The notes beneath the pieces are model-generated. The model saw only the letters and a program-made list of their open reading frames with translations. It did no database searches and was not told the DNA's origin. Shown here one piece after another: positions 2,141 to 16,186 of a stretch of DNA of 29,611 bases; position 1 is the first letter of the stretch, and every line of letters begins with the position of its first letter. Position numbers and translations under genes: made by a program. Origin of the DNA: a virus; IMG/VR virus record IMGVR_UViG_3300037131_000096, positions 1 to 29,611 of that record; one strand, given 5' to 3'.

Positions 2141-2752
2141 CTAATCGAGGGTCAGAGTGAGAACGAGCCCAGCGGGGAGAGCGTTCTTGATCACAGTGAG
2201 GAGTGAGGCTGAGCTGCTGGTGACGGCGTTGTAGTTCGAGAACGCGGCGTCCAGCGCCGTGTAGTTGGCGTAGGTGGGATCGAGGACGTAGTACCAGAGC
2301 AGCCCGGCCAGGTCCGCGTTAGGGATCGTGACGAGCACGTTGTAGGGGTCCGTCGAGCGCTCGGTGATCACTACCGAGCCCATCGAGGTGACGAACGGGG
2401 CGATCACTGCCTGCAGGGCGGCCACCGTGCCTCGCCCGAAGCCTTGTTCGCCCGTAATGGCTGCTCGCTGGGTGGCGTCGGTCTGCTGCAGAGATGTGAA
2501 GCGCACCCCGACGAACTGCGCCAACCACGCCAAGTCGGCCGTCGGGCAGCGGTTGATGTCGAGGACGCAGGACCACCCTGAGTAGCCGTTGGCGTCCCGG
2601 CTGAGCGAGTCGGTCGCTTGCAGAAGCGAACCCCCGCCTTCGAGCCAGGTGAGGAACGGATAGCCGTTGGCCGTGTCCTGGTCCTGCACGAACTGCGGGA
2701 GCGTGCTCCACAGGATCGCCGTATCGGGAGAGCACATCGTGGGCGACAGCAT
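2141..2752 (-). CDS. Baseplate protein, gpI-like
   Basis: A 203-residue protein immediately downstream of the baseplate J gene, sharing one base with it (TGATG). P2 gpI-type proteins occupy this position and link the wedge to the fibre. Supporting features are the N-terminal helical part (SLLQATDSLSRD), the WSCVLDINRCPTADLAWLAQ segment and a C-terminal alpha-beta part. Proteins of the family commonly carry such an 'L..LA...G' signature near the N-terminal third. Overlapping start and stop suggest translational coupling. The family call rests mainly on order and general layout. Confidence 0.8.
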   Translation of the reverse strand: MLSPTMCSPDTAILWSTLPQFVQDQDTANGYPFLTWLEGGGSLLQATDSLSRDANGYSGWSCVLDINRCPTADLAWLAQFVGVRFTSLQQTDATQRAAITGEQGFGRGTVAALQAVIAPFVTSMGSVVITERSTDPYNVLVTIPNADLAGLLWYYVLDPTYANYTALDAAFSNYNAVTSSSASLLTVIKNALPAGLVLTLTLD

Positions 2753-4371
2753 CAGGGGTGCGCCGCGACGGAGCCGGAGATCGTGCCGGGCGTGGTGAGC
2801 GGCGCGTCACCGGGCAGCGTGATGTTCACTGTCCCCGGGCTGTTGCCGTGGATATTGATGGTGACGCTCGCGAGATAACCAAGCCCCGGTGTGGCTGCGA
2901 GCACGCCGACGATGGCCAGGTACTGCACGATCGTCGCCGTCGGATCCCACGTTCCGGCGAGCACCAATGTCAGCACGGCAGTCCCGCTCGCGGTCGCGGG
3001 GGCAGAGATCGTTATTGACCCGTCGTCGTTGACGCTCTGCACCGTCGTCGAGGGCGGGATGCCGTAACCGAGAATGGGCTGCCCCGGTTGTATCTCGAAA
3101 GCCTGCGATCCCTGGGCGTCCGTCGGGACGACCACCCCGGCGATGAGGACGGACCCCGCGGTCACCGTGCCGTTGAACTCGACCGATTCGAGGCCCCATA
3201 CTGCGGGTGAGAGATAGGCCGAGATGGCAGCGTTGCCGGCCGCCTGCACGGTGGTGATGTTCGCCCCGACCTGTGCCGTGCCGGTCCAGGTGACATCTAT
3301 CTCGGTATAGGTGGGCGAGATGGTGAACACCAGGAAGTTGATCTCGCGCTGGGCCTGCAGGTAGGTCTCGAGGGCGGCCTGCACGGTGGGACTGAGGGCA
3401 TTGCCGTTGACGTCGACCCCGCAGACGGTCACGCAGCGCTCGACGCCCGTGAGGTCGCCGAGCGTGACGGTCCCGGCGGTGAGCGAACCGGTAGCAGCGT
3501 GGCTCATAGTCACCTGCGTTGCCGACACGTAGGCGCTGATCGTGGTCGAGCCCGGGATGTCCGTGCCTGTGACGGAGCGCCCGACGTCGGCGAGGGTGAA
3601 TGAACCGGCAGTGTCCACGAGCGCGGTGGAGGTGGCGAGCGTGATCGTCCCCGTGATGGTGCGCCCAGCAGCGAGCAGGTTGATGGCGACGGCCCGGTAG
3701 ACGCCGGCAACTTGCGGGGCTAGCTCTGCGAAGTCCTGCGGCAGGATCGGACGCGGCGTCAGGAGCTGCAGCTCGGCCGAGAGACGGTTCAGGTAGGTGT
3801 TGAGCGATTCGGGGTTCGTGCCGCCGGTGGTAGCGGTCGTAGCAGCGACAGAGGACACGAAGGCGAGCTGGTTGACGAGGACGATCGGCACCGTGTCGGC
3901 GATGCTGTTGTTCGCCGTGCCGACGACGCTCGCCTCGATCGTGATGCCTGTGGCCGTGGTCGAACCGGGGTTCACCGTGAAGGCGTTGACGGTCTGGAAC
4001 TGCACCTGAACATTGCCCAGGGTCTGATAGGCGACGATCGAGCCGGCTGGGACGGTGTAGCCGGCGCTGTTCACCATCGTCCATGTCGTCTGGGCCGTCG
4101 CTGGTGTGCCCTGGATGGGCGTGATGCCGACGAGGGACCCGAAGGACTGGAAGATAGCCATGGGCACTTGGGCGGCCACCTGAGCGGCCTCGGAGGCCAT
4201 CTGGGCGAACTGCTCCAGGAGGAGCACGTCGAGCTGGCCTTCGTTCGGCACCCAGCCAGGGAGGTTGGCTGCGATTGTGGCGAGTGCCGCCTGCACCATG
4301 GCGTTCGGGTCGGTCGTGACCGGGAGGACCAGGTACTCGCCGTTGACGGTGTAGTTCGAGATGTCGGTCAT
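2752..4371 (-). CDS. Baseplate J-like wedge protein with inserted beta domains
   Basis: The 539-residue protein starts at ATG 4371, overlapping the preceding stop by 4 bases (ATGA). The frame stays open upstream for 34 arginine-rich codons, which I regard as antisense shadow. The body carries baseplate J/gp47 features: an N-terminal helical part (QLDVLLLEQFAQMASEAAQV), TPIQGTPATAQTTW, and a mid-region with ESLNTYLNRLSAELQLLTPR and DFAELAPQVAGVYRAV. Two beta modules (roughly residues 235-300 and 410-485) interrupt it, each with a 'G.T/G..I...TT..S' pattern ending in T(M/I)S..AT. The protein should form the baseplate wedge ring with the gp25-type domain encoded by the preceding gene. Function is well supported; the inserts are unusual. 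Confidence 0.9.
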   Translation of the reverse strand: MTDISNYTVNGEYLVLPVTTDPNAMVQAALATIAANLPGWVPNEGQLDVLLLEQFAQMASEAAQVAAQVPMAIFQSFGSLVGITPIQGTPATAQTTWTMVNSAGYTVPAGSIVAYQTLGNVQVQFQTVNAFTVNPGSTTATGITIEASVVGTANNSIADTVPIVLVNQLAFVSSVAATTATTGGTNPESLNTYLNRLSAELQLLTPRPILPQDFAELAPQVAGVYRAVAINLLAAGRTITGTITLATSTALVDTAGSFTLADVGRSVTGTDIPGSTTISAYVSATQVTMSHAATGSLTAGTVTLGDLTGVERCVTVCGVDVNGNALSPTVQAALETYLQAQREINFLVFTISPTYTEIDVTWTGTAQVGANITTVQAAGNAAISAYLSPAVWGLESVEFNGTVTAGSVLIAGVVVPTDAQGSQAFEIQPGQPILGYGIPPSTTVQSVNDDGSITISAPATASGTAVLTLVLAGTWDPTATIVQYLAIVGVLAATPGLGYLASVTINIHGNSPGTVNITLPGDAPLTTPGTISGSVAAHP

Positions 4372-7300
4372 GAGGCGGCCTCCGCGGCTAGGGCAACCTG
4401 CACGTTTACGCCCTGCTGAGTGTTGTTCGCCACCGGGTTCACGGTCACGGCGACTGCTGCCCGCGGCTCCCACTGGTTGACCGCCTGAGTGATGGCGCCT
4501 GCGTTCGGTGTGGCGAAGGTCGGGTCGTCGACGCCGTAATCAGGGACCATCGTGCGATCGCCTTTCATCGTGCCGAGGAGCACGGAGACTGACTGAGTGA
4601 CCTCGGCGAGAGTGTCCTGCACGACGACGTTGAACGATCCGGAGGGCCCGACCGTGAGCGGCAGCGCCAGATGGGGCGTGATCGGTGGCGAGTAGGTGAC
4701 CAGGTACGGCGCCTGTGCAGGCGAGACGACGAGAGCGATAGCGGGAGTGGTGGCGCTCCCGTGGCTGTTGGTGGCTTCGATCTCGAACAGGTAGACGCCG
4801 CCGAGGCCTGTGGGTGTCCCCGAAAGCACGCCGGTCGTGGTGTTGAGGGTGAGTCCCGGTGGCAACGAACCCGAGCTGAGCGAGTAGGTCGGTGACGGCG
4901 AGCCTGAGGCGACGAAGGTGTAGCTGTACGCCACCCCGACGCTCGCCGTGACTGTTGGTGTGTCTGCCGTGAAGACGGGAGCGAGCGATGTCGAGAGGTA
5001 AGTCGCCGATACACTCGCCGTCGCGCTGGCCGTAGCCGCGCCGAGGCGAGCGAGTGTCGCTGCCGCACCGACAGAGGCCGTCGCGGTCACTGCTGCTATC
5101 CCGACGGCCCCGCCGAAGAGTGCTGCTACCGCCGCGAAGACGGGCTTGGGACTGACGGTCGGCAGGCCACCGGCGACGTCGGTATAGGTGGTCGCGAATC
5201 CCCAGTAAAGTCCGGTCGAGCTATAGGTGGGCGTGTAGTCGGCCAACTGGAAGGCGAGAACGACGGGGACGCCCATGCCCTCTATAGCCTCTAGGTATTC
5301 GACCATGTACGTTGACTGGAGGGCCGGCGTCATGTCTGGATAGCCGTCACCGCTCAAACCTGTAGTTACCGATTGCCAGCCGACCTCGGTCTGATAATGA
5401 GGCGTAGTAGACGGACTTCCCCACGTTATTTCTTGGGCCATCCAGGTAGGGATGAGACCGATGATGCCGTCGCCGGTCCAGCCGACGTTCGGCGGCTCGT
5501 TGCCTGGATAGCAGTACATGTGGAACGAGATGAAGTCGTAGGGGACTGTCGACAAGCTCGGTGATGCAGCGAACAGGCTCTCTCTGAAGTTCCAGCCTCC
5601 ACCGCCATTGTTGATATTCGCAACCGGCGCCGGGCTGATCCGGCAGGTGGAGTCTGCGCCGTGCATGGCCGTTACTACCGCTGAGAACTGGGAGATATAG
5701 GCAGCCGGTGTCGGCACGTTGTCGCAGGTGGCAGTCCCGCCGCCGGTATAAGTGCCGGTTGTCGTCTCACTGATCGTGAACTGGTATGCACCGGGGTTGG
5801 TGGCAGTGATCGTGTAGCTGCCCGCGACCAACGAGTTACCGGTGATAGTCCCGCCGATGTAAAGGGGCTGGCCGACGGCGAACTGCCACAGCTGATTAGT
5901 AGTAGGGGCGGCGGTGGTGACGATTGTCGAAGATCCAGGCGCGATGCCGGTGATATTGACCGTCTCTGTGTTGGCCTCGATCTCGTTGCCGTATTCCCAC
6001 CAGATGCCCGTATAGCCGTTGGCCTTGACGCCGGCCACTAGCGCAGCACACGCCGCTGCGACAGTGGATGTGGTGTAAGTGGCGCAGTCGCCCGTTCCGT
6101 TGGGAGGCAATCCCGAGTTGAGCGTCAGCACGATCAGCGGCTGTATGCCAGCCGCAATCAGCGGTGCCACCCACGCGGTGACGGCAGAGATGTTCGCTGT
6201 CGAGCCAATGGAGCCAGACGAGTTGGTGCCTTCGACCTCCAGATAGGCGCGATAGACCGTGGCACCGAGAGACTGGAGCACTGCATACGGTGGCAGCTCT
6301 GTGTATGCGGGCGACGGTGGCCACGCGAGGTCACCGCCGTTGATTCCGAAGCGGAAAGATGTCGAGGCCCACTGGGCGTAGAGCGTGACGCTGGCGGTGA
6401 ATGGATAGCTCGCTCCATTGGCGTAGGCGGTTCCCGTACCTCCGGCGACGGTGTTCCAGCTAGTGAAGACGTAGCTGGTCCGGGTGTAGGTGTTGGTCGT
6501 CAGGGCTGTCGATGCATTCTCGGTTTCGGGAGACATCGAGCCGGTGCCGCCGTTGGCGTTGAATGTGACGGTATAAGAAGGATTGACCGCCCATTGGGCA
6601 TATAACGTAACGTTCGCAGTGAAGGGATACGAGGCTCCATTGGCGTAGGCGGTTCCCGTACCACCAGCAACGGTGTTCCAGCCGGTAAAGGTATGACCGG
6701 TGTAGGCCATGCTCCCGGTAGAAAACAGCGACAGATCTGTTGCGACACTCTCGGTTTGAGACGCCAGAGAACCGGTTCCACCATTGGCATTGAAGGTGAC
6801 GGTGTAACCACTGGACACTCCCGCCGCCGAGAACACTACCTGAACTACTGTCCACGGCTGCGCCGAACTGCCTGCGGCCGACACGGCCGTTCCGTGCGCT
6901 GCCGAGTCGGTGGCGATCAGGTATGCAGGGAAGTAATCGCTGCCGACGACATCGAGCGTCGAGTTCGGAGCGATGAAGCTGTTGGTGAACGTGGCGGCGC
7001 CGATGCCGGGATAGTTCATGGCGCCCTGGACCAGGAACAATTCATTCGACCCGGCCTGTGCGTTGGTTGGCCCAACCGGAGTAGTGCTGTTTCCGGTCGC
7101 TACTCCTACAGCATCGAGCACTGTGCCTACCGAAGCTGTAAATCCTCCCCAATCATCCATAATCCAGTCAGAGTTAGGCGCTGCGTTGAATGTGATCGTC
7201 AGTGCGGGACTGACGGTCGAGGTACAGATTGTGTACCAAATCTGGACATAACCGCCTGAGGGCCATGTGGCCCCGGCAGCTACAGGATGATTTATGGCTT

Positions 7301-7463
7301 CTTGCCATACCGCCCCAGATGCGTCAACAATGCCAGTGATATAAGCAGCGTCCGTACCTTGCAACGTCAGCAGGTCGCCGACGACGGGAGTGAAATACCA
7401 GTCCGGCGTGGCAGGCGTCGAGCCCAGGTACTGCAGGCTCGTGTTCCTAAGTGCGATCGCCAT
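4368..7463 (-). CDS. gp25/W-type baseplate wedge protein fused to a glycoside hydrolase and InlB-type repeats
   Basis: One uninterrupted 1031-codon frame lies between the spike-like gene and baseplate J, where a gp25/W wedge protein of about 110-150 residues is expected. ATG 7463 has a TTAGGAG ribosome site. Visible parts: residues 1-212, a beta-rich N-terminus; 219-292 and 297-366, two InlB/Flg_new repeats (TVTFNANGGTG...LYAQW); about 369-780, a clan GH-A-like hydrolase domain with WWEYGNE (Glu494, probable acid/base) and QTEVGW (Glu693, probable nucleophile), interrupted at about 506-580 by a beta insert; 828-915, a He_PIG-like Ig domain (LPPGLTLNTTTGVLSGTPTG); about 925-1031, a gp25-like domain with GDRTMVPDYG. 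Virion-bound polysaccharide cleavage during adsorption is inferred. The substrate is unknown. It overlaps the J gene by 4 bases. Confidence 0.85.
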   Translation of the reverse strand: MAIALRNTSLQYLGSTPATPDWYFTPVVGDLLTLQGTDAAYITGIVDASGAVWQEAINHPVAAGATWPSGGYVQIWYTICTSTVSPALTITFNAAPNSDWIMDDWGGFTASVGTVLDAVGVATGNSTTPVGPTNAQAGSNELFLVQGAMNYPGIGAATFTNSFIAPNSTLDVVGSDYFPAYLIATDSAAHGTAVSAAGSSAQPWTVVQVVFSAAGVSSGYTVTFNANGGTGSLASQTESVATDLSLFSTGSMAYTGHTFTGWNTVAGGTGTAYANGASYPFTANVTLYAQWAVNPSYTVTFNANGGTGSMSPETENASTALTTNTYTRTSYVFTSWNTVAGGTGTAYANGASYPFTASVTLYAQWASTSFRFGINGGDLAWPPSPAYTELPPYAVLQSLGATVYRAYLEVEGTNSSGSIGSTANISAVTAWVAPLIAAGIQPLIVLTLNSGLPPNGTGDCATYTTSTVAAACAALVAGVKANGYTGIWWEYGNEIEANTETVNITGIAPGSSTIVTTAAPTTNQLWQFAVGQPLYIGGTITGNSLVAGSYTITATNPGAYQFTISETTTGTYTGGGTATCDNVPTPAAYISQFSAVVTAMHGADSTCRISPAPVANINNGGGGWNFRESLFAASPSLSTVPYDFISFHMYCYPGNEPPNVGWTGDGIIGLIPTWMAQEITWGSPSTTPHYQTEVGWQSVTTGLSGDGYPDMTPALQSTYMVEYLEAIEGMGVPVVLAFQLADYTPTYSSTGLYWGFATTYTDVAGGLPTVSPKPVFAAVAALFGGAVGIAAVTATASVGAAATLARLGAATASATASVSATYLSTSLAPVFTADTPTVTASVGVAYSYTFVASGSPSPTYSLSSGSLPPGLTLNTTTGVLSGTPTGLGGVYLFEIEATNSHGSATTPAIALVVSPAQAPYLVTYSPPITPHLALPLTVGPSGSFNVVVQDTLAEVTQSVSVLLGTMKGDRTMVPDYGVDDPTFATPNAGAITQAVNQWEPRAAVAVTVNPVANNTQQGVNVQVALAAEAAS
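6366..6809 (-). repeat. Two tandem InlB/Flg_new repeat units
   Basis: The units cover 6588-6809 and 6366-6575 within the 1031-residue gene. Both encode YTVTFNANGGTGS at the start and GTAYANGASYPFT...VTLYAQWA at the end. The DNA is also closely similar (GCTCCATTGGCGTAGGCGGT occurs in both), so the duplication appears recent. Confidence 0.85.
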
Positions 7464-7472
7464 GGGTCGCTC

Positions 7473-7811
7473 CTAAGCTGGTGCGGTCGGGAAGCTGACG
7501 ACGTAGGGACGACCGACGCCGTTGCCGATGAAGATGACGATGACGGGCGCTCCGACGGGAGGGACGCCACCCGAGAAGCCGACAGCGGCTGCCGGTTGGT
7601 AGGGCGCGGGCCCGAAACCCGGTCCTGGGCCATAGGTCTCGGGAAGGGCGAACCACACGCACGGCAGCGTCACGGCTGTCTGCCCGGCGATCGAGACAGG
7701 CGCCGTGCCTACCTTGGTGACGACGGCTTCCTGGGGCCCTTGGATCGCCGGCGCTGCTGTCCGGATGCCAGTGAGGTCCCGGAGCATCTTTTGCTGCCAG
7801 ACGCTAGACAT
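7473..7811 (-). CDS. Baseplate spike/OB-domain protein (gpV/gp5-like)
   Basis: The 112-residue product overlaps the hub gene by 8 bases and precedes the gp25-type gene. This is the place of the central spike or its OB-fold base. The N-terminus is helical (MSSVWQQKMLRDLTGI). A beta barrel-like part follows (EAVVTKVGTAPVSI, TLPCVWFALPETY), then VGAPVIVIFIGNGVGRPYVV, which matches the OB-fold strands of spike proteins. There is no long beta-helix needle, so a separate tip may be encoded elsewhere or absent. Function is inferred from position and fold pattern. Confidence 0.72.
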   Translation of the reverse strand: MSSVWQQKMLRDLTGIRTAAPAIQGPQEAVVTKVGTAPVSIAGQTAVTLPCVWFALPETYGPGPGFGPAPYQPAAAVGFSGGVPPVGAPVIVIFIGNGVGRPYVVSFPTAPA

Positions 7812-8784
7812 ATTGCAGGGATGGCACGCCGAGCCGTACTTGCTCCGCTGTCATCGGAGTCTCGAGGGTCATGGTTCCTTCCGGGTTGAACAGGTCGCGT
7901 TGCATGCTGTAGACGAGCCACACCCCGTTAAGCGGACCGAGCCGAGCGATAGTGACGGGCTGGCCTGGGTGATAGGGCCAGTACTGGGTGATCGCCGTGA
8001 CCGAGATCTGGCCGCGCGGCATCCCGATGTCGTAGGTCCCGTCCATGTTCATGATCGCCGGAGTGAACTCGACGAGCGTGCCGGCAGAGGGGAACTCGGT
8101 GAGTAACCAGTCGTCGCTTCCGAGGTAGATCGTGTACTCGCACTCGTAGACCCGGTAGCCGCACGAGTTGGCGAGCCGGTTGATGCAGGTCCAGGAGTCC
8201 TCGTTCGGCGTCTCTGTCGTGCCACGAGCGATCGGAGAGGTGGCCGTGGCAGTCGAAGAGGCATCAACGCCCGAGCCGGTGTCGAAACTCACCGCTCCCG
8301 GTTGGGCCACGAGGGTCGCGCCCGGCACGGCGGTGAGAAGGTGCTCGACAAAGCCCGGCAGGTCCGTGGTCGATGCCCAGGTGAAGGCGCCCGTCTGCTT
8401 ACGCAGGTCGTAAGCGAGGGCCGCTTCGAAGGTGATCTGGAGCTGGTCGCCCTGCTTGGCGAACTGCACGAGGGCGAAGTTGAGGCCGTCCCAGGCGAGC
8501 ACGTCGCCGAAGTTGAACATCCCTGAGTTGATGATCGAACGATGTGGGTCCTGCAGCTGCATGACGATGGACGAGGCGCCGTCGATCGTCCGGTTGAGCT
8601 GCATGTCGGTCACGCCCGAGGTGACGTTGGCAACCTGCGCGACGGCAGTCGGATTCGACTGGTAGCCCTGTGCGAGGATGGGCACGATCTGGTTGATCGG
8701 GACGGTATTGATTAGCACATCGGCGGCGGACAGTTGGCCCATGCCGCGGGCGGGAGGCGTGCCCGAGGCGACGAGGAGGGTCAT
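7804..8784 (-). CDS. Baseplate hub protein (gp27/gpD/XkdQ-like)
   Basis: The 326-residue protein carries a hub-type layout: an N-terminal part with DMQLNRTIDGASSIVMQLQDP, a middle (LAWDGLNFALVQFAKQGDQ) and a conserved-looking segment EDSWTCINRLANSCGYRVYE followed by YLGSDDW. The last part (PVTIARLGPLNGVWLVYSMQ) is typical of XkdQ/gp27-like proteins that cap the tail tube and hold the spike. ATG 8784 has only a weak purine-rich upstream segment (GGGCGG). The IS605 remnant begins just upstream, so insertion may have replaced the original ribosome site. Order (LysM, hub, spike, gp25, J, I) supports the role. Confidence 0.85.
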   Translation of the reverse strand: MTLLVASGTPPARGMGQLSAADVLINTVPINQIVPILAQGYQSNPTAVAQVANVTSGVTDMQLNRTIDGASSIVMQLQDPHRSIINSGMFNFGDVLAWDGLNFALVQFAKQGDQLQITFEAALAYDLRKQTGAFTWASTTDLPGFVEHLLTAVPGATLVAQPGAVSFDTGSGVDASSTATATSPIARGTTETPNEDSWTCINRLANSCGYRVYECEYTIYLGSDDWLLTEFPSAGTLVEFTPAIMNMDGTYDIGMPRGQISVTAITQYWPYHPGQPVTIARLGPLNGVWLVYSMQRDLFNPEGTMTLETPMTAEQVRLGVPSLQYV

Positions 8785-8802
8785 CGGTGACCGCCCGAGA
8801 TA

Positions 8803-8823
8803 CCCCTAGCTTCAGCTATGGGG
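8803..8823 (+). repeat. Left-end subterminal hairpin of the IS605 remnant
   Basis: CCCC-TAGCT, loop TC, AGCTA-T-GGGG: nine pairs with one bulged T near the 3' side. It has the same shape, loop and bulge position as the right-end hairpin. Such imperfect hairpins are the TnpA (Y1) recognition structures of the family. Confidence 0.85.
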
Positions 8824-8838
8824 AGGTAAGGGCGCCTG

Positions 8839-8943
8839 TCAGACGTTGCGCTGGTTGGCGACATATTGCTTGACGATCGCCAAAGGGGCGCCTCCGACCG
8901 TGGCGACGAAGTAGCTGTTCGTCCAGAGTGTTGGCAGCCTGTT
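8839..8943 (-). pseudogene. tnpA: tnpA (Y1 transposase) C-terminal fragment
   Basis: The minus strand reads LPTLWTNSYFVATVGGAP followed by LAIVKQYVANQRNV and a stop at 8839-8841. This is the C-terminal signature of IS200/IS605 TnpA, normally about 130-150 residues. Only about 35 residues remain. The catalytic HUH motif and probably the tyrosine helix context are missing, because the reading is replaced near 8940 by antisense of tnpB. It cannot encode an active transposase. Confidence 0.85.
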
Positions 8944-9143
8944 CGAGTTGCGGAGCGAGAGCCAAGCTGCGCCTTGAACTGGCGATGAGAATCTTCCGGT
9001 GCGAGTACTGCGGGTTTAACGCTGACAGAGACCGGAACGCCGCGAGGACGATCCTCGCCACGGCTGAACGTATCCGTGCTGGTGTTGACGATGTAAGACA
9101 ACTCGCTTGCCTCCCTTCCGGTGGTGAGCTGGTTGCTGTCTGA
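8940..9143 (+). pseudogene. tnpB: tnpB C-terminal fragment (zinc finger and last RuvC motif)
   Basis: The plus strand encodes CSSCG, then FRCEYCG and DRDRNAARTI, the TnpB C4 zinc finger and final RuvC motif, and ends at TGA 9141-9143 just before the right-end hairpin. A full TnpB has about 350-450 residues, so roughly the last 70 remain. The first RuvC acidic residues and the RNA-binding N-terminus are gone, so no nuclease can be made. In intact elements this 3' region plus the right end also yields the omega-RNA, and that segment appears complete here. Confidence 0.88.
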
Positions 9144-9152
9144 GCTAGAAAT

Positions 9153-9173
9153 CCCCCGGCTTCAGCCGTGGGG
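9153..9173 (+). repeat. Right-end subterminal hairpin of the IS605 remnant
   Basis: CCCC-CGGCT, loop TC, AGCCG-T-GGGG, with the same architecture and loop as the left-end hairpin. It lies 9 bases after the tnpB stop, the normal right-end position. Confidence 0.88.
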
Positions 9174-9178
9174 AACCG

Positions 9179-9859
9179 TTAAGACGGCAAGATGATCCGC
9201 TGGCCCGGAGTCAGGTTGGCCGGGTCCCTGATCGAGTTCACGGCCGCGAGCTCGGTCCACAGCGCCTGGTTGCCGAGGACCCGGGCGGCGATCTTGGCGA
9301 GGGTGTCACCCGCCTTGCACACATAGGTTCGCCGACTCGTCGACGTCCCCTGCGCGTTGAGGGCGAACTGGGCAGCCTGGGCGGGCGTCAGTTGCGTGAG
9401 GACCGACGACGATGACGGGACGTACTCGTAGAGGGTGAGGCCGATCTTCTGCTGGATGCGGTTGCCACCGTCGTCACGGATCAGCTCGTCCTCGTTGAAC
9501 TTGACGACGTACAAGATCCAGTAGAGGGCCTTGGCCTGGGCATCGATCGGTCCCGAGACCTGGTGCACGGGAGGCTGCATCGCGCCGGGCGTCGGGTATT
9601 GCCAGCCGAAGAGCGTGGCGCACTGCGGCTCGATCGACTGGCCGTTGCCGTCGAGGATCAGCTCCAGCACGAGCGACATGGGCGACGCGTCGTACCACTG
9701 CGTGATGGCCTTTTGCCGGGGGCGGTCCACGATCTGCCAGCCCCCGGAAGAGCCCGAGCTCACTGGTTCGAAAGAGCCGTTGCCGATCATCCCGAAGGTG
9801 ACGGGGGTACCGCGCGGCAGGACCGGGGTGACCGTCAGGGTGTGAGGAAACTGGGCCAC
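9179..9859 (-). CDS. LysM-containing baseplate/tail tube initiator protein (gp53-like)
   Basis: The 226-residue protein has a beta-rich N-terminal domain (residues 1-150) and a C-terminal LysM domain (about 175-226: TYVCKAGDTLAKIAARVLGN, then LWTELAAVNSIRDPANLTPGQRI). In contractile phages, proteins of this architecture follow the tape measure gene and form the baseplate hub collar. LysM here usually binds other tail proteins rather than cell wall. The start is GTG 9859 with a GAGGGGTGA ribosome site. The stop abuts the IS605 remnant. Two plus-strand genes separate it from the tape measure gene, so the late transcript reads through them in antisense. Confidence 0.88.
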   Translation of the reverse strand: MAQFPHTLTVTPVLPRGTPVTFGMIGNGSFEPVSSGSSGGWQIVDRPRQKAITQWYDASPMSLVLELILDGNGQSIEPQCATLFGWQYPTPGAMQPPVHQVSGPIDAQAKALYWILYVVKFNEDELIRDDGGNRIQQKIGLTLYEYVPSSSSVLTQLTPAQAAQFALNAQGTSTSRRTYVCKAGDTLAKIAARVLGNQALWTELAAVNSIRDPANLTPGQRIILPS

Positions 9860-14653: not shown

Positions 14654-16186
14654 TTAGACGGGGATGTTCTGGGCGACCGAGTACTGCACGACGTTGATGA
14701 GCGTGAACTCGGCGTAGGGCGAGAACCGCACTGAGACCGTCGCCAGGAGCTGGCAGGCCGCGAGTGTCGTCGGCGTGTTCACCTGCGGCCCCGTGTTCAC
14801 GCTGAAGGCCTGCTCAGCCGTGGTGCCGTACAGGGCTCCCTGCTGCCAGAGGTCCTGGCAGACGCCGGCGAGCGCTCCGTTAAAAGCACTGATCAGGTGA
14901 CCCTGTCCGTCGATTTGCTGGAAAGCGAACGGCGCCGCGGCATTGTTGAGCAGGTTGACGATCGCCATCCGCATGCGTCCGAAGTTGGCCGGGACCCACT
15001 GCGGGTTCGTCGAGAAGCTGACGTAGCCGTAGAGCTTGATGAGCCCGTTCATATTGCGGATGACGCTGACGCCTGCCGAGTTCAAGTTGCCGCGGTCGGA
15101 CTCGACGTAGTTGTTGGTGACGCCGATGGCGTAAGCCGAGACGCCGTTGTTGCCCGCGGCCGGTACGCCAGCGTTGTTGTTCTGGTCGCTAGATGCGATA
15201 AGGGCTGCGACCAGAGCCGATGGCGGCACGGTCCGGGTAGCCGCCACCGGCGAAGCTGTCGTCGACGTGGCGGCGATGCCGGGGATGATGACCCACGGGG
15301 CGAGGAACATGCCGAAGGAGCCGTCACCGGTGGTGATGCTGGCAACCGCAGTCTCGATGGTGGATGCCGAGGAAGAGTCGGCATCGTCGCAAAGCGCAAA
15401 GCGGTTGTTCAACAGGGAGCCCGAGGCTGAGTCAAGAGCGCCGGCGTGAGCGATGAGGGCTCCCCAGCCCACAGCCGTGGTGTGCCCAGGTGCGGAGACC
15501 TGGCCAGGACCGAGGTTGTCGAGGAAAGCCACCAGGCCGGCCGTCCATTGCGCCTCGACCACGTCGGCGAGGTCGTCCGCGCCGGCGGCGAGGGGCGTGG
15601 CAGCGAGAACGGCGGGGTTGTTGTTCGGGGCCACGGTGACCGAGCCGTCGTTGACGATCGTGAAGGGGAACGCCCACGGAGTGGCGCCGGCGAGGTTGGT
15701 CGCCCACGTCACGGCGTCGGCCGGCACGAACAGGTTCGGGCTGACCCAGGACTGGCCCGTCAAGGGAATGGCGATCGTGATGACGTAGCTGTTGGTCGGG
15801 ACACCGGCGGCGACCGCTACGGTGCACGAGTTGCCCCACACACCGGCGCCGTTGGCGGTGACGGTGAGGGTGCTCACCGCCGAATGGTCCTTCAGGATGA
15901 GCGTGGCGTTGACGGCGCTGGGGCCGACGATGCGGCTTACGTAGGCGAGCACGCCGCCGTCGTGAAAGTACTCGTCCAAGGAGTCGTAGAGCATCGTGTA
16001 ACCGGTGCGGGTCCCGAGGAAGTTGGCATAGTCGGTCATCGATGTGATCGGGACTGCTGTACCGACAGGACCCTGCGCGGCCTCACCGGTGACGAACCAC
16101 GTCCCGGTCGATGGGGCGGCAGAGGGTGACGGAGCGGCGGCGGCTATGTCGACATAGACACCAGGGGCGGTGGGGACTGGGCTCAT
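14654..16186 (-). CDS. Tail sheath protein
   Basis: The 510-residue protein starts with PTAPGVYVDIAAAAPSPSAA and then WFVTGEAAQGPVGTAVPITS. This is the sheath N-terminus with the G.YV and GP.G.P..I.S motifs. It continues with a helical DYANFLGTRTGYTMLYDSLD segment and ends with FTLINVVQYSVAQNIPV, the strand that reaches into neighbouring subunits. Length is in the usual 400-650 range. ATG 16186 overlaps the preceding stop (ATGA) and has an AGGAGGAAGAG ribosome site, suggesting high expression. Its presence defines the phage as contractile-tailed. Confidence 0.95.
   Translation of the reverse strand: MSPVPTAPGVYVDIAAAAPSPSAAPSTGTWFVTGEAAQGPVGTAVPITSMTDYANFLGTRTGYTMLYDSLDEYFHDGGVLAYVSRIVGPSAVNATLILKDHSAVSTLTVTANGAGVWGNSCTVAVAAGVPTNSYVITIAIPLTGQSWVSPNLFVPADAVTWATNLAGATPWAFPFTIVNDGSVTVAPNNNPAVLAATPLAAGADDLADVVEAQWTAGLVAFLDNLGPGQVSAPGHTTAVGWGALIAHAGALDSASGSLLNNRFALCDDADSSSASTIETAVASITTGDGSFGMFLAPWVIIPGIAATSTTASPVAATRTVPPSALVAALIASSDQNNNAGVPAAGNNGVSAYAIGVTNNYVESDRGNLNSAGVSVIRNMNGLIKLYGYVSFSTNPQWVPANFGRMRMAIVNLLNNAAAPFAFQQIDGQGHLISAFNGALAGVCQDLWQQGALYGTTAEQAFSVNTGPQVNTPTTLAACQLLATVSVRFSPYAEFTLINVVQYSVAQNIPV

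Follow-up and report, generated by a model that had tools for sequence, protein, structure and literature searches.

Gene organization of the locus

The window analysed here is the whole 29,611-nucleotide stretch of virus record IMGVR_UViG_3300037131_000096, a 29.6-kb record that is probably a fragment. As an initial annotation of this DNA had reported, 4368..7463 holds a single uninterrupted ORF of 1031 codons; it lies on the minus strand and runs from an ATG at 7463 to a stop codon at 4368-4370 with no internal stop. The ATG is preceded by the ribosome site TTAGGAG, also pointed out in that annotation, within which TAG is the stop codon of the V-like gene, and the stop codon of the ORF and the start codon of the J-like gene overlap in ATGA. 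Such overlaps at both ends are as in a tight operon.

Several genes around this ORF encode baseplate and tail proteins; those given below with coordinates are on the minus strand. The next gene in the operon (2755..4371) encodes a J-like baseplate protein (gp6/J; PF04865 in frame, 59.4 bits with neighbours) that is 79% identical to its counterpart in the related contig L002, and is followed by a tail protein I-like gene (2141..2752; PF09684, 1.6e-6). Just upstream lies a spike/V-like gene (7473..7811), with a weak match to PF04717, below cut-off, and 57% identity to an L002 ORF in the same place. Farther upstream are a gene that we call hub-like from its position (no family matched), a LysM protein gene, a probable tape measure gene, a tube gene and the contractile tail sheath gene (14654..16186; phrog_23, 2.8e-33). 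The window thus comes from a phage with a contractile tail. The order V-gp25-J-I is common to the window and its relatives.

Other features of the neighbourhood were also recorded. A remnant of the C-terminal zinc ribbon of TnpB (IS605 OrfB; 8928-9143, plus strand; PF07282, 4.5e-9) lies between the hub-like and LysM genes; its sequence is 48% identical to that of an intact L002 TnpB, whose gene stands between hub and V. Compared with that of the related contig L004, the J-like proteins of the window (2755-4371) and L002 have two inserted beta-like segments, and the J-like protein of L003 (6058-8730) has a far larger insert.

Domain architecture of the 1031-residue protein

Residues 1-216 (6816..7463, minus strand, as for all the domains below) form an N-terminal domain for which we found no match in Pfam or NCBIfam and, with tblastn, none in phages. 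A comparison with the N-terminus of the ORF encoding gpI in L004 gave no support for a relationship. The next segment (residues ~218-365; 6369..6812) consists of two InlB-type (Listeria-Bacteroides) repeats, which matched the Flg_new family PF09479 over cut-off in two stretches (4.6e-20, best at residues 220-290). They are followed by a GH39-like domain (residues 369-790; 5094..6359), an Ig-like domain of the He_PIG family (residues 829-913; 4725..4979; PF05345, 4.2e-12, over cut-off) and a gp25/W baseplate wedge domain (residues 932-1031; 4371..4670), which makes up the last tenth of the chain. The two InlB repeats and the Ig-like domain had both been proposed from the letters alone, and the profile searches agree. 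The whole protein had no relatives in scans of viral and genome contigs. The GC3 of the arm preceding the gp25 domain (0.65-0.77) is lower than that of the gp25 part (0.82) and of the neighbouring genes (0.76-0.89), a pattern as for exchanged cargo, to judge from base composition.

The C-terminal domain is a gp25/W wedge protein

According to the initial annotation, the last residues of the chain look gp25-like, with GDRTMVPDYG near residue 968; the motif begins exactly there. GPW_gp25 (PF04965) matched residues 952-1017 with 30.4 bits, against a cut-off of 27.2 (35.6 bits in a six-frame search), and the PHROG baseplate family phrog_5026 matched residues 932-1026 (5e-13). The gp25 proteins of related contigs, as well as those of Arthrobacter and Gordonia phages, aligned with the entire last 100 residues; the domain was 58% identical to gp25 of L002, and its WEPR region was conserved.

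Structure prediction of residues 925-1031 had been suggested as a check. We built an AF2 model of residues 820-1031 from 11 sequences, in which the gp25 part mostly had a pLDDT of 80-93 and the Ig part was not confident. When the gp25 model was compared with the PDB with Foldseek, ranks 1-8 were all baseplate entries of contractile systems (probability at least 0.98), from PVC, pyocin R2, cyanophages A-1(L) and Pam3, an Algoriphagus injection system and phages KP1, XM1 and P1; the individual E-values were modest, 1.5e-3 at best. The closest viral model was the wedge protein of Arthrobacter phage Vibaki. Taken together, the HMM matches, the fold search and synteny firmly identify the C-terminal domain as a gp25/W wedge protein, and it is the one gp25 copy in this fragmentary record. 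Two BFVD models from uncultured Caudovirales phages, A0A6J5NAE6 (1041 aa) and A0A6J5SMW7 (1477 aa), gave weak gp25-like fold matches (E 0.2); these predicted structures are possible further large gp25 fusions.

The middle domain is predicted to be GH39-like

Residues 369-790 matched nothing in Pfam, NCBIfam, the PDB sequences or the phage and plasmid collections. The domain alone found no relatives in the viral and genome contig scans, and direct searches of the record with Pfam GH5, GH39 (PF01229) and GH128 gave no match. Scanning for the motif WWEYGNE found nothing, and WWExGNE matched mostly unrelated proteins. A scan of viral contigs for DFISFHxY led to L055 (L056 in its extended form), a GH39 protein of a phage that matches PF01229 (4.8e-9) and beta-xylosidases of the PDB (7e-12).

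Pairwise comparison with this GH39 relative revealed an 82-residue insert (residues ~497-578; 5730..5975), which had not been mentioned before and splits the domain directly after the E494 motif. The insert has no counterpart in the relative; its deletion raised the pairwise score from 6.7 to 14.5 bits, and the remaining domain was collinear with L056. When the seed motif was masked, this alignment was equalled by 2 of the 2854 shuffles that were scored. Because the seed had been picked through a motif of the window itself, the surroundings of DFISFH are not independent evidence, while the stretch from strand 2 to strand 5 is. We also considered whether the insert is kin to the beta-like domains of the J-like protein and found no support for this, 8 of 2000 shuffles being as good for one J domain and 173 for the other.

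A GH39 profile was then made from ten relatives (L056, L057 and L059-L066), with the window domain left out. In hmmsearch the window domain scored 12.0 bits, against a maximum of 3.9 both for shuffles and for 348 background proteins; with L056 removed from the profile (HMMER) it still came first, by a small margin (7.0 versus 5.6 bits). With the insert removed, hhalign aligned it to the profile at 93% (score 59, 157 columns; maximum of 21 in 60 shuffles) and put E494 on the acid/base Glu of GH39, the Glu of WNEP at the end of strand 4. From these scores and the placement of E494, residues 369-790 are very probably a divergent GH39-like barrel of clan GH-A. The profile alignment ends before E693, in QTEVGW, which by its motif is the likely nucleophile, a Glu that the clan has at the end of strand 7. 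A single-sequence AF2 model of the domain had a pLDDT of 35, with strand-helix alternation visible in part. The clan GH-A-like domain of the initial annotation has thus gained a relationship to GH39 and an acid/base position for E494; both glutamates are at the residues it gave, E693 being a candidate nucleophile and the barrel a putative fold. Compared with GH39, the domain is collinear from about strand 2 to strand 6 and shares the acid/base Glu motif, but is divergent, carries the 82-residue insert and is not recognised by PF01229.

gp25 in related phages and the junction with the arm

A search with the J-like gene yielded 12 related contigs, 10 of them distinct; a genome scan with the same gene gave no relatives. 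Each of the 12 records has exactly one gp25. It is bare (101-110 aa) in L010, L012, L013, L017 and L020, has a 75-residue low-complexity N-terminal extension in L002/L009 (one distinct; 176 aa in total), and bears an N-terminal domain of about 120 residues in L011, L014, L015/L016 and L018/L019 (four distinct; 217-230 aa in total). The latter domain had no Pfam match and is fibronectin III-like by eye. N-terminal additions to gp25 are therefore tolerated. None of the 10 distinct contigs carries an enzyme on gp25 or a gp25 fusion above 230 aa, and in the four isolates that we read, phages of Arthrobacter and Gordonia, gp25 stands alone. The nearest isolates infect Actinomycetota.

The interval between V and gp25 is variable. 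It holds a 694-aa ORF in L002/L009 and other ORFs in L011 and L014-L019, and in the window it is occupied by the arm, which is continuous with gp25. Homology to the L002 gp25 extends upstream of the core (residues 922-931), across the junction, where neither the window nor L002, its nearest relative, has a start codon; the join therefore lies inside coding sequence in both phages. As judged from the sequence at this point, a stop codon lost between two genes is unlikely. The argument against two merged genes, previously made from gene order and the ribosome site, is strengthened by these observations and by synteny on both flanks.

Several baseplate genes of the relatives have additional parts or neighbours. 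In L011 an ORF directly before gp25 (5049-6302) matches glycosyltransferase 2 and methyltransferase families, and ORFs of similar size (~411-417 aa) are found at this place in L014-L016, L018 and L019. In L004 the I-like tail protein forms the central portion of a 786-aa ORF (7333-9693) with extra N- and C-terminal parts, making it another decorated baseplate gene, and the V-like proteins of L012 (5134-6192, 352 aa) and L013 (4900-6258, 452 aa) are apparently fused to an extra C-terminal domain.

Proposed role of the fusion protein and alternatives

We think it probable that the gene encodes a gp25/W wedge subunit with a modular adhesin-hydrolase arm, which would be present in about six copies per virion. 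The N-terminus of the wedge protein would be extended by a domain without known relatives, two InlB-type repeats, a GH39-like hydrolase and an Ig-like spacer. Each wedge would hold one copy, with its gp25 domain in the usual position, flanked by the J-like ring and the sheath. For T4 gp25, which surrounds the hub together with gp6 and gp53, six copies per baseplate are listed (PMC3004832); a contact with the sheath is expected for TssE (PMC6300606). Since gp25 is the last tenth of an adhesin/hydrolase-like chain, the virion would carry about six built-in arms, arranged round the upper baseplate if the full chain is incorporated, as we infer. Six or twelve copies had been envisaged; because T4 gp25 is listed at six, six rather than twelve are expected by analogy. 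The arm would point outward and, while the baseplate nears the cell, attach to and cleave a glycan of the surface or matrix; binding or spacing would fall to the repeats and the Ig domain, whereas the GH39-like domain would trim glycan in the path of the baseplate. It need not be the sole receptor-binding part, since another variable gene, located after I (1290-2126; its residues 6-34 are conserved in L002), may encode an ordinary fibre. A bolder version, which we regard as doubtful, makes the wedge protein itself the enzyme carrier: each of the six gp25 subunits would hold its adhesin-hydrolase arm beside the trigger of contraction, and the binding or cleavage of glycan could then be coupled to sheath firing directly, with separate tail fibres or spikes bypassed.

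The evidence comes from one metagenomic sequence, with a single instance of the fusion, and one has to weigh whether an assembly or sequencing error joined two genes, one for an adhesin lying upstream and one for gp25, the more so as L002 has its separate 694-aa ORF between V and gp25. We consider this very unlikely, given an open frame of 3 kb with ordered domains, the homology to L002 that spans the junction and the synteny on both flanks; in addition, a usable start is lacking around the gp25 core, as the GTG codons fall in the Ig domain (844 and 879) or within gp25 (948). Even less credible is that the product is an accessory fibre with a spare gp25-like domain as its anchor, the true wedge gp25 being encoded outside the fragment. 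The record is indeed shorter than a 56-kb relative, but the domain is at the canonical V-gp25-J position and each of the 12 related records has one gp25 only.

The remaining alternatives accept the gene as it stands. The product could be a precursor that a protease cuts between the Ig and gp25 domains, leaving a gp25 of normal small size and, as an independent product, an enzyme or fibre. The linkers at residues 786-826 (Ala/Ser/Thr-rich) and 914-931 could be cleaved and gp25 is small in all isolates checked, but no cleavage signal was identified and the relatives keep their N-terminal gp25 domain or extension in the gene; we rate such processing as unlikely, if somewhat less so than an inactive arm. 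In that last case the fusion would be genuine and the GH39-like barrel a sugar-binding or spacer domain, as could be argued from its strong divergence from GH39, from the insert that interrupts it beside the active-site strand and from a profile that places E494 only. Against this, E494 and the second Glu, in TEVGW, are both there, as clan GH-A expects. We retain the wedge subunit with an adhesin-hydrolase arm as the probable reading.

Relation to known systems

With the gp25/gpW/TssE family (PF04965; T4 gp25, P2 W), the fusion shares the C-terminal 100 residues, WEPR, gene order and fold, but members of this family are normally stand-alone proteins of ~100-150 aa, whereas here gp25 is 10% of 1031 aa. 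The gp25 proteins of L011, L014-L016 and L018-L019 likewise have an extra domain directly N-terminal, in the same neighbourhood, and differ by their length (217-230 aa) and by having neither repeats nor an enzyme. Closest in concept is the evolved Dit found in siphophages (e.g. PMC10688798), an analogous precedent for decorating a core baseplate protein with carbohydrate-active modules; there, however, the core is Dit, the modules bind sugar instead of hydrolysing it and the tails are non-contractile. T4 gp5, the tail lysozyme, also combines an enzyme domain and a baseplate structural part in one chain, but belongs to the hub/spike rather than the wedge, is a lysozyme and is present in three copies (PMC3004832). 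The gp25 family itself was once labelled lysozyme on old T4 data; since a later test of a T6SS member detected no such activity (PMC3352280), this label is no precedent.

The initial annotation knew of no such arrangement. With relatives that extend gp25 and the precedent of evolved Dit, the fusion is less isolated than this suggested, but an enzyme on gp25 was indeed absent from the 10 distinct related contigs. We found no description of a gp25-enzyme fusion in the literature searched, which was limited to open-licence papers, so that this absence is weak evidence. Decoration of a core baseplate protein is itself already known; what is new is that gp25 is the protein decorated and a hydrolase the decoration.

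Few parts of contractile machines, which include phages, pyocins, T6SS and PVC-like systems, are as conserved as gp25, and the protein is expected to be in contact with the sheath. If its N-terminus can bear a 920-residue arm, the wedge would be a site to which enzymes or binders can be attached, a matter of relevance to the evolution of host recognition in contractile phages. The fusion would also give a functional twist to a family long called lysozyme without later support (PMC3352280).
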